A DNA stretch of 64,000 bases from Cognatiyoonia koreensis. Its GTDB lineage: Bacteria; Pseudomonadota; Alphaproteobacteria; Rhodobacterales; Rhodobacteraceae. The stretch's first letter is position 1. The number at the start of each line of letters is the position of its first letter. The stretch spans positions 434,001-498,000 of the forward strand of contig NZ_FOIZ01000001.1 in the NCBI RefSeq assembly GCF_900109295.1. The letters run 5' to 3'. Below are positions 43,800 to 48,107 of this stretch, piece by piece. Position numbers and translations under genes: made by a program. A model generated the notes under the pieces. It ran no database searches. It saw nothing but the letters and a program-made list of their open reading frames with translations, and was not told the DNA's origin.

Positions 43800-44204
43800 A
43801 TGCATAACGACCAGCCCATCGCGGTGATGGATGCGACCTGCGCTTTGTGCAGTTTCGGCGCGCGCATGATCCATCGGCTTGACCGGTCCGGCGATATCCG
43901 CATTTGCCCGATCCAGACAGACAAGGGACGCCTGTTGCTGGCCGCGCAAGGGCTGGATGCGCTGGACCCGGACAGCTGGCTGTTTATTGAAGGCCCCCGT
44001 GTTTATCACAACTTTGATGCAGTCATTCGCGTCGGCGAACGTTGCGGCGGGTTCGGCCGTATCCTGTCGGTGTTGCGCCTTTTGCCCAAAGGCACACGTA
44101 ATTGGCTTTACTACACGATTGCCCGCAACCGCTATCGCCTGTTCGGGCGCGGAGACATGTGCGCAATTCCTGATGAGTCCTTCCAGCGCAGGCTGATGCA
44201 ATGA
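43800..44204 (+). CDS. Thiol-disulfide oxidoreductase DCC family protein (DUF393)
   Basis: 134 residues. The DCC motif, MDATCALCSF (Asp-x-x-Cys-x-x-Cys, about residues 10-19), starts a thioredoxin-like domain; FIEGPRVYHNFDAVIRVGERCGG fits DUF393. The product ends with a hydrophobic/basic tail YYTIARNRYRLFGRGD. Family members are probably membrane-associated redox proteins of unproved role. Starts with AAGGACG upstream. Overlaps the next gene by 4 bp (ATGA), so the two are co-translated. Confidence 0.87.
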   Translation: MHNDQPIAVMDATCALCSFGARMIHRLDRSGDIRICPIQTDKGRLLLAAQGLDALDPDSWLFIEGPRVYHNFDAVIRVGERCGGFGRILSVLRLLPKGTRNWLYYTIARNRYRLFGRGDMCAIPDESFQRRLMQ

Positions 44205-45814
44205 AAGTTGCCGTCCTTGGCGGCTATGGCGTGTTTGGCAGCCGCTTGTGCCGCCTTTTGGTGCGCGACAAGCATGACGTCATCGTGGCGGGCCGCAATG
44301 CAGAGTCTGCTGGTGCATTGGCCCAGGAATTGGACGCGTCGTCCCTGACGCTTGATCGCGCTGGCAATCTTGCGCCGCTGTGGGCTATGGCACCGGATGC
44401 CATTGTTGATGCTGCCGGACCGTTTCACGCCTATGGGGACGATCCCTATCGGCTGGCACGCGAAGCGATCGCGAACGGTGTGCACTATCTTGATCTTGCC
44501 GATGATGCCGATTTTTGCGCAGGCATCAAAGTGCTGGATGAAGCGGCAAAAGCGGCAGGCGTCTTTGCCCTGTCTGGCATGTCGAGTGTGCCGGCCTTGT
44601 CATCCGCAGCAGTTGCAGCGCTGCGTGAAGGGGCGGACAGCATTGATCTGATCGAAACCGCGATCCTGCCCGGTAACCGTGCTCCACGCGGGCAGGCGGT
44701 CGTGGACAGTATCCTGTTTCAAGCGGGGACCGATATTGATGTCACTGTCGATGGCGCTGTCACGCAGGTGCAAAGCTGGTCGCATGCGCAGGTTTTTGAT
44801 CTGCCTGGCGGCATCAAGCGGCGTGGCTATGCCATTCGTGTGCCGGATCAATCGCTGTTTCCTGCGCATTTCGGGGCGCGCACCGTCACCTTTCATGCGG
44901 GGTTGGAAGTTGGATTGATGAACCACGGCCTTGCCGCGTTTGCATGGCTACGCCACAAGATCGGGTTCGGGATTCCTGACTGGTTTGCCCGTACTGTTCG
45001 GCGCGCGGCCGTGTTGGTGGGTTGGCTGGGCACGGATACGGGCGGCATGAGCGTGCGTGTCGTGCAGCGCAATGGCGCGCAATGGCATGCGCGCACATGG
45101 CGTTTGCTGGCTCGCAAGGGCGAGGGGCCTTTCATTCCCGCAGTGTCTGCGCGGACCGTCTTGCGCAAACCCTACGATGTACCGACGGGCGCGCGAGCTG
45201 GTCTAGAGGCGTTTACCTTGACAGAGGCCGAGAACGCGATGTCGGACCTTGCCGTTGAGACGGACATGGCGGCAGAGGTGCTTGTTCCCCTGTTCCCTTC
45301 GGTACTTGGCACGGAATTCATGACACTTGCCCCGGCTGTGCAGGCGTCCCATCAGGTATTCGCCCCCAAACGTCTGACAGGAACGGCGCGCATCACCCGC
45401 AGTCGTGGTATTTGGCCAAATCTGATCGCGATAATTTTCGGATTTCCTGCAGCGGCGCAAGACATACCCGTGCGCGTTCTGAAAACACCGCATGCAAAGG
45501 GCGAAACCTGGGTGCGCCAGTTCGGCAGGCAATCGTTCATGTCGCATCTGCGCCGTGGTCCGCGCGGGATCACCGAAAGCTTTGGCCCCTTCACATTCGA
45601 TCTGGGTCTTTACGCCAAGGACGGCAATCTGCACTATCCGATCACGGGCGGGCGGCTTGGCCCCTTGCCACTGCCCACCGCGTTTCTGCCCGAAAGCGTC
45701 GCCGTCGAGCGCGCGGTCGACGGCGCGTTTACATTCGATGTCAGTATCAGGGCCCCGCTGACCCGACAGCTGATTGTCCGATACGAAGGCACGCTTTTTC
45801 ACACAGATCGGTAA
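44201..45814 (+). CDS. Saccharopine dehydrogenase-like NADP-binding protein fused to DUF4166
   Basis: 537 residues. N-terminal Rossmann domain (about 1-130: VAVLGGYGVFGSRLCRLLV, HYLDLADDADFC), then a middle saccharopine dehydrogenase-like region, and a C-terminal DUF4166 domain (about 360-537: FPSVLGTEFMTLAPAVQ ... RQFGRQSFMSHLRR ... ESFGPFTFDLGLY ... VRYEGTL). This two-domain protein paired with a DCC thiol-disulfide protein recurs in proteobacteria, but its reaction is unknown. It is probably a cytosolic/peripheral oxidoreductase. Confidence 0.85.
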   Translation: MKVAVLGGYGVFGSRLCRLLVRDKHDVIVAGRNAESAGALAQELDASSLTLDRAGNLAPLWAMAPDAIVDAAGPFHAYGDDPYRLAREAIANGVHYLDLADDADFCAGIKVLDEAAKAAGVFALSGMSSVPALSSAAVAALREGADSIDLIETAILPGNRAPRGQAVVDSILFQAGTDIDVTVDGAVTQVQSWSHAQVFDLPGGIKRRGYAIRVPDQSLFPAHFGARTVTFHAGLEVGLMNHGLAAFAWLRHKIGFGIPDWFARTVRRAAVLVGWLGTDTGGMSVRVVQRNGAQWHARTWRLLARKGEGPFIPAVSARTVLRKPYDVPTGARAGLEAFTLTEAENAMSDLAVETDMAAEVLVPLFPSVLGTEFMTLAPAVQASHQVFAPKRLTGTARITRSRGIWPNLIAIIFGFPAAAQDIPVRVLKTPHAKGETWVRQFGRQSFMSHLRRGPRGITESFGPFTFDLGLYAKDGNLHYPITGGRLGPLPLPTAFLPESVAVERAVDGAFTFDVSIRAPLTRQLIVRYEGTLFHTDR

Positions 45815-45863
45815 ATCTTCTGCTGGTAGTTTTGCCGCATGTTAAGGATTATGCGGCATCAAG

Positions 45864-45888
45864 GGAACGAATGGCGCTGTCGCGCGTT
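45864..45888 (+). promoter_or_regulatory. EcfG-type (general stress) promoter: GGAAC-N16-CGTT
   Basis: GGAAC at 45864-45868 is followed by a 16-base spacer and CGTT at 45885-45888, which exactly fits the alphaproteobacterial EcfG consensus (GGAAC-N16/17-CGTT). It lies 49 bp before the ATG of a NepR homologue, the anti-sigma factor of the same system. GGTTCGAACC (45924-45933), a perfect palindrome, lies between promoter and start. Position and target make a chance match less likely; it remains an inference without transcript data. Confidence 0.65.
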
Positions 45889-45937
45889 GTATGAGCACAC
45901 CGCCGTTGGCCCCACCTGGTGAAGGTTCGAACCGATC

Positions 45938-46102
45938 ATGACGATGAATGACAGACGCCGCGATAGATCCGTCGATGAATATATCGACCAGAACCTGCGG
46001 CTTGTCTTCTCGAATATTGAAACGGCCGAAATCCCTGACCGCTTCAAGGAATTGCTGGATCGCCTGCGACAGCAGGATGAAAACCAATCCCAACATCAAT
46101 GA
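45938..46102 (+). CDS. nepR: NepR-family anti-sigma factor (54 residues)
   Basis: Small ORF ATG 45938 to TGA 46100. The product (54 residues) begins MTMNDRRRDRSVDEY. Its core, YIDQNLRLVFSNIETAEI then PDRFKELLDRLRQQD (residues 15-47), matches NepR, whose two helices hold EcfG inactive until phosphorylated PhyR takes NepR away. An in-frame ATG at 45944 is possible. No ecfG or phyR adjoins it, which is unusual because nepR normally sits beside them. It is preceded by a promoter of exactly the kind EcfG recognises, giving negative feedback. Short, but the family pattern is clear. Confidence 0.78.
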   Translation: MTMNDRRRDRSVDEYIDQNLRLVFSNIETAEIPDRFKELLDRLRQQDENQSQHQ

Positions 46103-46285
46103 GTCAGGGTAATCCCAATGTCGAAGTTGTCGGTCGTATTCCTACCCTGCGCTGACAATGTCGCCGCTTTGCCCTGCATTGTTTCGCGGAATCCCTGTTT
46201 CCCATCGCTGATCAGGTGCCGAACCTAGTATTGCTGACCCAAAACGCCTAACGTAGGGGCGTTTCTGTGATGCAAGGTTGAGCGA

Positions 46286-48022
46286 ATGGCCCCGAATACG
46301 ATTTACGGCACATCCGGTGCGGACAATTTGCCGGGAACGTTGTTTGACGATTACATCCTGGCCTACGAAGGGGATGATTTCGTTCAAGGATTTGGCGGCA
46401 ACGACAGCATCTTTGGCTGGACCGGCAATGATATCCTGTATGGTGGTGATGATGACGACTATGTCTATGCCTCTTACGGGTCCAATTACCTTTATGGCGG
46501 GTCCGGAAACGACGCGCTTGAGGCGCGGGGCAACGGCAACAACACATTGGACGGTGGCATTGGCGATGACACCCTTTATGTCCGCTCGACCGGCGATGCG
46601 ACTTTCTATGGTGGCGATGGCAACGATACGATCAGTGTGCATTCCGGCACGAACGTGCTGTTCGGGGGGCTGGGTGACGACCTGATCGGCACGGGGTCCG
46701 GAAACGATACGCTTTATGGTGAAAACGGCAACGATACGGTCAATGGCACGCAAGGGATTGACCATGCGTACGGCGGCAGCGGAAATGACCGCGTCACGGG
46801 GGCGTATGCCTATGGCGGGGCCGGTGACGATTCCGTCAGGGCGCTGACAGGATATGGATCGTTCTTGTATGGCGGCACGCATGACACGGAGGCCGGCAAT
46901 GACGAATTGCGCGGCAGCAGTCAGGGTGATCGGGCCTATGGCCGTGCGGGCAACGACTATTTCGACATGTTCGGTGGCAATGATGTCGCCGATGGTGGCC
47001 GTGGACATGATACGATTTTTGGCGGTGCGGGGGATGACACGCTTTCTGGCATGTCGGGCAATGATACGATCTATGGCGGTGTCGGGAATGACCGTGTCTA
47101 TAGTGGCAGCGGTGCCGATGAAGTCTTTCTTGATGACGGCGACGATTATGTGCTCGCCGGAGGCGGGGCAGAGGCGTTCTATGGCGGTGCGGGCACCGAC
47201 TATATCAGCTATTACCGCAGCAGTAGTGGCGTCACAATCAATCTTGCGGCGAATACGGCGTCCGGGTCATGGGCAGAAAACGACCTTGTCGCGAATTTCG
47301 AGGGTGTGTCCGGCTCGAAAACCGGTGGCGACAAGATCGTCGGCACGTCCGGCGCAAATCTTATCAAAACCTACGGCGGCGACGACAAGGTCTATGGCGG
47401 CAGTGGTGCTGACGTGATCCATCTTGGCGACGGCAACGACTATGTGCGTGTCGGCGGAGGCGCAGAGCAGTTCTATGGGGGCAATGGAACCGATTATATT
47501 AGCTACTACTACAGCACTGGCGGCGTGACGCTTGACCTGCAGGCGAACACCGTTTCCCGGTCATGGGGGGCCAACGATGCAATATCCGGTTTCGAGGGCG
47601 CATCCGGATCGCGGACCGGTGGCGACAATATATCCGGCACGTCCACCGTGAATGTCATCAGATCCTATGGTGGTGATGACCGGCTGAACGGGCGCGGTGG
47701 CAATGACAAGCTGTTCGGCGGGTCCGGTTCTGACCGGATTGACGGGGGTGGAGGCGACGATATCCTTTATGGCGGAGCCAATTCGGACGTCTTTCATTTC
47801 GACCGCGGAGAGGACCGCGACACCATCAGGGATTTCCAGAATAATATCGACACGATCGAACTGGATAACTTCCAGTTTTCAGGCGGTTCCAATACTGACG
47901 ATCCATTCGATTTCGCAGACCAGGTCGGCGCGGACGTCGTTTTTGATTTTGGGGGCGGCGACACGCTGACGATCGAAGACGTCACCATTGGCCAACTGCG
48001 AAACGATCTGGAGGTCGTCTGA
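46286..48022 (+). CDS. RTX-type calcium-binding repeat protein
   Basis: 578 residues, nearly all nonapeptide GGxGxDxUx repeats (GGDGNDTI, GGSGNDAL, YGGAGDDSV), which bind Ca2+ and form beta-rolls outside the cell. Residues about 290-485 hold two tandem 98-residue modules (GGGAEAFYGGAGTDYISYYRS, GGGAEQFYGGNGTDYISYYYS; DNA about 47153-47446 and 47447-47740). The C-terminus, VFHFDRGEDRDTIRDFQNNIDTIELDNF, is the usual RTX end and likely type I secretion signal. No cleavable signal peptide; no T1SS genes in this window. Upstream is a weak hairpin (46242-46264). Confidence 0.88.
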   Translation: MAPNTIYGTSGADNLPGTLFDDYILAYEGDDFVQGFGGNDSIFGWTGNDILYGGDDDDYVYASYGSNYLYGGSGNDALEARGNGNNTLDGGIGDDTLYVRSTGDATFYGGDGNDTISVHSGTNVLFGGLGDDLIGTGSGNDTLYGENGNDTVNGTQGIDHAYGGSGNDRVTGAYAYGGAGDDSVRALTGYGSFLYGGTHDTEAGNDELRGSSQGDRAYGRAGNDYFDMFGGNDVADGGRGHDTIFGGAGDDTLSGMSGNDTIYGGVGNDRVYSGSGADEVFLDDGDDYVLAGGGAEAFYGGAGTDYISYYRSSSGVTINLAANTASGSWAENDLVANFEGVSGSKTGGDKIVGTSGANLIKTYGGDDKVYGGSGADVIHLGDGNDYVRVGGGAEQFYGGNGTDYISYYYSTGGVTLDLQANTVSRSWGANDAISGFEGASGSRTGGDNISGTSTVNVIRSYGGDDRLNGRGGNDKLFGGSGSDRIDGGGGDDILYGGANSDVFHFDRGEDRDTIRDFQNNIDTIELDNFQFSGGSNTDDPFDFADQVGADVVFDFGGGDTLTIEDVTIGQLRNDLEVV

Positions 48023-48032
48023 CCGAGGGGGA

Positions 48033-48107
48033 TGGTGCTGTGAGAGAGGATTGAACTCTCGACCTCACCCTTACCAAGGGTGTGCTCTGCCACTGAGCTA
48101 CCACAGC
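48033..48107 (-). tRNA. tRNA-Thr(GGT)
   Basis: 75 nt including encoded CCA, on the minus strand. Reading from 48107: GCTGTGGTAGCTCAGTGGCA start, anticodon loop TTGGTAA giving GGT, T-loop GTTCAATCC, 3' CCA at 48033-48035. Fits tRNA-Thr; lies 10 bases after the RTX stop, with no room for a separate terminator. Confidence 0.95.

Follow-up and report, generated by a model that had tools for sequence, protein, structure and literature searches.

A second, free-standing nepR gene behind a predicted EcfG-type promoter in Cognatiyoonia koreensis

Introduction

The described systems closest to the gene treated here are the NepR paralogues of Methylobacterium extorquens, Sphingomonas melonis and Sinorhizobium meliloti. 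META2p0735 of M. extorquens is reported to have a putative EcfG-type promoter, and its induction by ethanol or salt was abolished in the absence of PhyR or of the six EcfG proteins (PMC4814048). The protein pulls down PhyR, showed no interaction with EcfG and sensitises the cells when overexpressed (PMC4814048). According to the same report, the M. extorquens NepR paralogues that bind PhyR did not interact with any EcfG, and META1_2700, which also has a putative EcfG promoter, pulled down no PhyR (PMC4814048). In S. melonis, NepR2 is assigned to the EcfG regulon, with a stress induction slightly below the authors' cut-off; it binds PhyR, and deletion of nepR2 raises the activity of the general stress response (GSR) while overexpression lowers it (PMC6599016). 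The corresponding experiment with NepR2 and EcfG failed, both proteins being unstable, which the authors take as suggesting that no complex is formed (PMC6599016). Alanine changes that weaken the S. melonis proteins are L32 and Y36 in NepR, and L31 and F35 in NepR2 (PMC6599016). For S. meliloti, rsiA2 is described as not rpoE2-dependent (PMC3616915), and RsiA2 is said to bind the sigma factor as well as both PhyR proteins (PMC4814048).

Stress control by PhyR, NepR and EcfG is little studied in the Rhodobacterales: a 2018 paper on Rhodobacter sphaeroides states that no earlier study had addressed the role of PhyR in a member of this order (PMC5830050). The genome described here offers a natural test of a NepR without its usual neighbours, as it holds two EcfG, two PhyR and two NepR, with one set complete and the other one split.

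The orphan nepR gene and its promoter

The window, i.e. the whole 64-kb stretch of DNA that was analysed, is part of a 2.37-Mb contig in an assembly of 3.65 Mb and 99.99% completeness. Its MurA is 92% identical to the MurA of Yoonia maritima, and best matches are mostly to Yoonia, Loktanella and Rhodobacteraceae. The features of the locus are listed in Table 1.

Table 1. Features around the orphan nepR gene (positions within the window)
Feature	Position	Strand	Remarks
DCC1-like thiol-disulfide oxidoreductase	43800..44204	+	PF04134; left neighbour pair, outside the stress system
Sacchrp_dh/DUF4166 protein	44201..45814	+	PF03435, PF13761; left edge of the variable slot with nepR
EcfG-type promoter GGAAC-N16-CGTT (predicted)	45864..45888	+	exact match; placed similarly in most relatives examined
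Orphan nepR (second nepR, nepR2-like)	45938..46102	+	54 aa; Pfam PF18557, E = 8.6e-11
RTX-repeat protein, 578 aa	46286..48022	+	PF00353; downstream of nepR, same slot
tRNA-Thr(GGT)	48033..48107	-	ARAGORN; right edge of the variable slot

A preliminary description of this DNA had recognized a NepR gene 49 bp behind an exact GGAAC-N16-CGTT promoter and had reckoned with the case that an alignment would reveal no NepR relatives. The Pfam match to residues 15 to 47, with 41.7 bits against a cut-off of 25.7, bears out the assignment along with the coordinates; at the sequence level it confirms the ORF as a NepR homologue and refutes its being a chance ORF. In a genome-wide profile search the product scored 41.4 bits. 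A second in-frame ATG lies two codons on, at 45944, and would give a form of 52 residues, which is already present with its NepR domain in the protein collection (P0001). The gene was thus not missed there by annotation, as had been considered possible in view of its size.

In an alignment through the 2lfw_B sequence, Leu20, Arg21 and Phe24 of the orphan correspond to Leu32, Arg33 and Tyr36 of S. melonis NepR. Two of these, L20 and F24, therefore align with the functionally important L32 and Y36, and F24 is a phenylalanine as is F35 of S. melonis NepR2. The consensus of the second helix, PDRFKELL.RL, is better preserved in the orphan than in NepR1 of the same genome, and the Pfam score of NepR1 (30.1 bits) is also the lower of the two.

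The promoter consists of GGAAC at 45864-45868, a spacer of 16 bases and CGTT at 45885-45888, from where 49 bases lead to the ATG at 45938. Allowing spacers of 15 to 18 bases, the motif occurs once in the window compared with 2.5 times expected from shuffles, and by itself it therefore proves nothing. Genome-wide and on both strands, the exact motif with a spacer of 16 or 17 was found at 54 sites and the reversed pattern at 165. The chance of a correctly oriented site within the 85 start positions 5' of the orphan gene is about 6e-4. GGAAC-N16/17-NGTT was present within 150 bp in 75 of 96 distinct nepR upstream regions (exactly CGTT in 44), compared with none of the 96 for the reversed pattern; these regions, which include the window's own, come from loci fetched for various reasons, many of which went into the profile, and are not a random sample. 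An EcfG-driven nepR is accordingly nothing unusual among the family members compared.

Genomic neighbourhood

The neighbours named in the preliminary description, a DCC/DUF4166 pair and an RTX protein, were recovered with the Pfam matches given in Table 1. The orphan gene sits between the DUF4166 gene and tRNA-Thr(GGT), and the RTX gene follows it. DUF4166 was matched in 73 family genomes. Of the best 30 loci, 27 have a DCC match ahead of DUF4166, and one, the window's own, has nepR after it; no nepR was detected beside DUF4166 in the other 29, of which L085 spans only about 400 bp beyond that gene. A conserved neighbourhood of nepR with the common DCC/DUF4166 pair was therefore rejected. Likewise, a profile built from the family found no nepR in any of 80 murA loci. 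In the loci L108 and L122 of two relatives, DUF4166 is followed by the same tRNA-Thr and murA, and both nepR and the RTX gene are absent; the contents of the slot differ, with another ORF in L108 (by eye) and about 100 bp, or next to nothing, in L122. ARAGORN, applied to 7 murA loci, found the tRNA-Thr(GGT) in these as well. Positions 45815-48032 of the window, located 3' of tRNA-Thr(GGT) beside murA, thus appear as a variable slot.

The GC content falls to 0.51-0.53 around 45750-46500, a dip too short for an argument for import from base composition. A plasmid-type cassette was also rejected, since a plasmid DNA search with 44201-48020 returned 7 records with short matches, all of them inside the RTX gene. 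Because no plus-strand terminator-like site is listed in 46103-46285, between the end of nepR and the start of the RTX gene, the latter might be read from the predicted EcfG promoter of nepR. A hairpin-like AAACGCC...GGCGTTT can be seen by eye shortly 5' of the RTX start.

Two GSR sets in the same genome

The orphan gene does not adjoin ecfG or phyR, which is the usual, if not obligatory, arrangement of nepR, and neither of these genes lies within the window. Its separation from both had been noted in the preliminary description, and a genome search for phyR, ecfG and further nepR, proposed there, yielded two of each; one phyR-ecfG locus shares the contig of the orphan, at a distance of about 1.0 Mb, and the other is on a second contig. 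Of the two alternatives put forward earlier, a second nepR or a displaced only copy, the former holds, and the latter falls with the presence of a complete locus. This canonical GSR locus at C1:1.505 Mb has phyR on one strand and, divergently, nepR, ecfG and a PhyK-like HWE/HisKA_2 kinase gene, with nepR1 and ecfG1 overlapping by 4 bases.

The second phyR and ecfG are at C2:1.130 Mb (L221:7677-9169, equal to G000:C2:1129676-1131168), again divergent, and 89 bp separate their longest ORFs. This pair without nepR lies outside the window, beyond the view of the preliminary description. The slot that it occupies between mscL and alaDH holds a DUF2585 gene, ecfG2 and phyR2; no nepR and no kinase-sized ORF was found in it, and between ecfG2 and phyR2 there was no EcfG motif even when one mismatch was allowed. 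Both products look intact from their sequences: in PhyR2 the sigma-like domain and the receiver domain are both present, with LADV around the phosphoacceptor compared with LADI in PhyR1, and EcfG2 has sigma regions 2 and 4.

Proposed function of the orphan NepR

A predicted promoter at 45864-45888 in front of a separate nepR is most naturally read as EcfG-driven negative feedback, as suggested in the preliminary description. The idea is sound and the promoter supports it, but it is neither new nor special to this gene, given that EcfG-linked NepR paralogues have been published and that the promoter precedes most of the family nepR examined. The accompanying statement that NepR holds down EcfG is right in calling the product a NepR, but such an activity cannot be assumed for a paralogue in view of META2p0735 and NepR2.

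We consider it fairly probable that the orphan is a second NepR which the GSR switches on when needed, an EcfG-induced brake on PhyR and/or EcfG. This reading is favoured because of the NepR domain, the placement of the promoter, the residues kept, the presence of GSR sets in the genome and the precedents of META2p0735 and NepR2. Upon stress, EcfG would be activated and EcfG-RNA polymerase would transcribe the orphan gene; the two-helix product would occupy phosphorylated PhyR and so free NepR1 to recapture EcfG, and/or it would bind EcfG1 or EcfG2 directly. Possible targets are thus the complete PhyR1/NepR1/EcfG1/kinase locus as well as PhyR2 and EcfG2. The orphan belongs to an already described type of GSR feedback regulator; its transcription by EcfG, its binding partners and the negative feedback are inferred. 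Against the brake it can be argued by analogy that other nepR paralogues are not always EcfG-driven or active (rsiA2, META1_2700). There is also no conservation showing selection on the orphan, because no ortholog was found at this position in the genomes examined. Two of the alternatives, a PhyR decoy and a cognate partner of the second set, are narrower versions of the brake, and our confidence in the one does not detract from that in the others.

As a pure decoy, the orphan would bind PhyR but no EcfG, acting as an anti-anti-anti-sigma factor without a cognate sigma factor. This is what the respective authors propose for META2p0735 and for S. melonis NepR2, both of which are linked to EcfG in their expression (PMC4814048; PMC6599016), and the contact residues of helix 1 are preserved in the orphan. 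We nevertheless regard it as somewhat doubtful that the orphan is a decoy only, as sigma binding in addition to PhyR binding is stated for S. meliloti RsiA2 (PMC4814048). Sigma binding does not appear less likely here, since the consensus of the second helix is kept, more closely than in NepR1, and one of the two EcfG of the genome has no accompanying nepR.

The second-set slot in relatives

The gene order pheT, GST, mscL, slot, alaDH, lrp is common to the relatives, with GST missing in some. Two intact slots are known. In the relative G334, whose flanking proteins are similar to those of our genome (PheT 82%, GST 77%, MscL 74%, AlaDH 88% and Lrp 87% identity), a kinase gene, ecfG, nepR and phyR lie between mscL and alaDH, with an exact EcfG promoter before nepR; this genome carries another GSR set elsewhere. 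In G382 the slot contains a kinase gene, ecfG, nepR, phyR and a crp-type gene, and its PhyR and NepR are the only ones found in that genome. Because two relatives keep both genes at the same place, the genome studied here has probably lost nepR and the kinase gene from its slot. No GSR proteins were matched in the stretches fetched at mscL and alaDH of G001, G295, G034, G029, G051, G186, G026, G246 and G107; these nine regions around alaDH included both genes, and in a tenth, from G267, mscL was not found. An alaDH match was obtained in 321 genomes; among the best 30 of these loci, taken with up to about 1.5 kb of flank on each side, a PhyR match was seen only in this genome and in G334, the PhyR of G382 being beyond that flank.

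Within the genus, G002 has a single GSR set, whereas neither a NepR match (E <= 0.01) nor a PhyR homologue (E <= 1e-20) was found in G001, which is rated 100% complete. G001 contains one PF22029 match of 37.9 bits with one in-frame stop, a type of match also given by EcfG-type sigma factors. The GSR system may be missing or decayed within the genus. For comparative work, G334 with two complete sets, G382 with its single PhyR and NepR in the same slot, G002 with one set and G001 without a detected NepR or PhyR form a useful series.

The orphan could be the cognate anti-sigma factor of EcfG2/PhyR2, if nepR had moved with its promoter out of an mscL-[kinase-ecfG-nepR-phyR]-alaDH arrangement, the kinase gene had been lost, and ecfG2 had given up the self-activation that nepR kept. 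The gene counts agree with this, as do the present slot, lacking nepR, kinase and EcfG motif, and the complete slots of G334 and G382. In addition, a tree constrained to join the orphan with the two slot NepRs was not rejected (p-AU 0.81) and scored above the free tree, which means that the free search was not exhaustive; with about 50 columns, these trees have too few positions to settle the origin. The free search, in contrast, grouped the orphan with NepR1 of this genome, G002, G295 and G334 (support 85, unstarred). Nor does sequence similarity favour the slot, in that G332 provided the closest of 97 NepR sequences (24/48 identical, a similarity within the NepR core), with our own NepR1 ranking 30th, the slot NepR of G334 57th and that of G382 outside the top 30. 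Moreover, PhyR2 and EcfG2 share 52% and 57% identity with the slot proteins of G334 and no less (53% and 57%) with its other set, the PhyR and EcfG trees, in which G334 is absent, leave set 2 unplaced on long branches, and nine other relatives looked at, G001 among them, show no GSR genes at this place. Altogether we judge a cognate role with this history rather unlikely.

Origin of the orphan

A lost slot copy, a duplicate of NepR1 and an import are all possible origins judging from the sequences. One version of the first, which we hold to be quite improbable, is that nepR moved away from phyR2-ecfG2 and took along the EcfG-type promoter of nepR-ecfG at that locus, so that ecfG2 would have lost its self-activation while its inhibitor, now next to the tRNA gene, would have stayed EcfG-driven. 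If true, a self-amplifying switch would have turned into a self-limiting one, and the two EcfG/PhyR sets would be open to cross-talk via a free-standing NepR.

Alternatively, the orphan may have arisen by duplication of the clade's nepR1, come to lie beside tRNA-Thr along with its promoter, and have little function left under ongoing drift. The placement in the free tree and the lack of anything similar at this place in the other genomes examined are in line with such a duplicate, but erosion would be expected, and the promoter is exact and the NepR score exceeds that of NepR1, so that we find drift very improbable. A chance ORF or chance promoter is negligible as an explanation, for although the motif as such would be expected more than twice in the window, the NepR match is highly significant and the motif is placed as in relatives.

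nepR in the family and on plasmids

Of 394 family genomes, 190 gave a PF18557 match at E <= 0.01, and in 186 the match was over the cut-off. Regions were fetched around 40 nepR matches, a part of 54, covering main and second copies from genomes with more than one nepR match and from G002, and 36 of them contained an EcfG or PhyR match. Of the four others, L067 and L072 fall below the Pfam cut-off and L038 and L051 exceed it; an exact upstream motif is present in L072 and none in the remaining three. The two that exceed it, L051 (G278:C1) and L038 (G039:C108), are further examples of a free-standing nepR, the flanks as fetched matching neither ecfG nor phyR. Among three candidates in the protein collection, the orphan had one relative beyond itself, a 52-aa protein of 49% identity on a contig of 1237 bp. 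Comparison of the protein with named genomes, a weak test with so short a query, found no relative.

A search for nepR on plasmids gave 11 matches, two of them to tssM rather than nepR. Whole phyR-nepR-ecfG-kinase sets are present on four of the 11 matching records looked at, and their NepRs are only 31-41% identical to the orphan over the matched part. These sets (L306-L309) belong to the Rhodobacterales plasmids pDSHI02, pRLO149_94, S2214 unnamed4 and pRA01, and a gene for a DNA starvation/stationary phase protection protein adjoins two of the four.

Comparison with known systems

Like META2p0735 of M. extorquens AM1, the orphan is an extra NepR with an EcfG-type promoter and conserved core residues. 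Binding, induction and the effect of overexpression were measured for META2p0735, whereas the orphan is known from sequence alone, and the six EcfG of M. extorquens AM1 compare with two in our genome (PMC4814048). With NepR2 of S. melonis Fr1, which is EcfG-regulated and for which negative feedback is proposed, it shares the status of a second NepR and the leucine and phenylalanine contact residues; S. melonis nepR2, however, adjoins ecfG and was inconclusive in BLAST prediction, while the orphan is remote and a clear Pfam NepR (PMC6599016). S. meliloti, with its two PhyR-type regulators, has a second NepR as well, RsiA2, but rsiA2 is reported as not rpoE2-dependent, unlike what the EcfG-type promoter of the orphan would suggest (PMC3616915).

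In the literature covered, from which subscription journals are mostly absent, we found no report of a genome that combines a free-standing nepR with a phyR-ecfG pair lacking nepR. The nearest case is Rubellimicrobium thermophilum, whose GSR and GSR' loci likewise provide two PhyR and two EcfG, with one locus lacking nepR; a single NepR is reported there, as opposed to the second nepR located elsewhere in our genome (PMC12148442). Sphingopyxis granuli TFA has nepR1 and nepR2 at separate places and GGAAC-N16-CGTT before one of them, but in contrast to the orphan these genes adjoin ecfG in one case and a phyR in the other (PMC7083833). Spare copies of nepR are thus already known, and the unusual feature of the genome described here is its split second GSR set.
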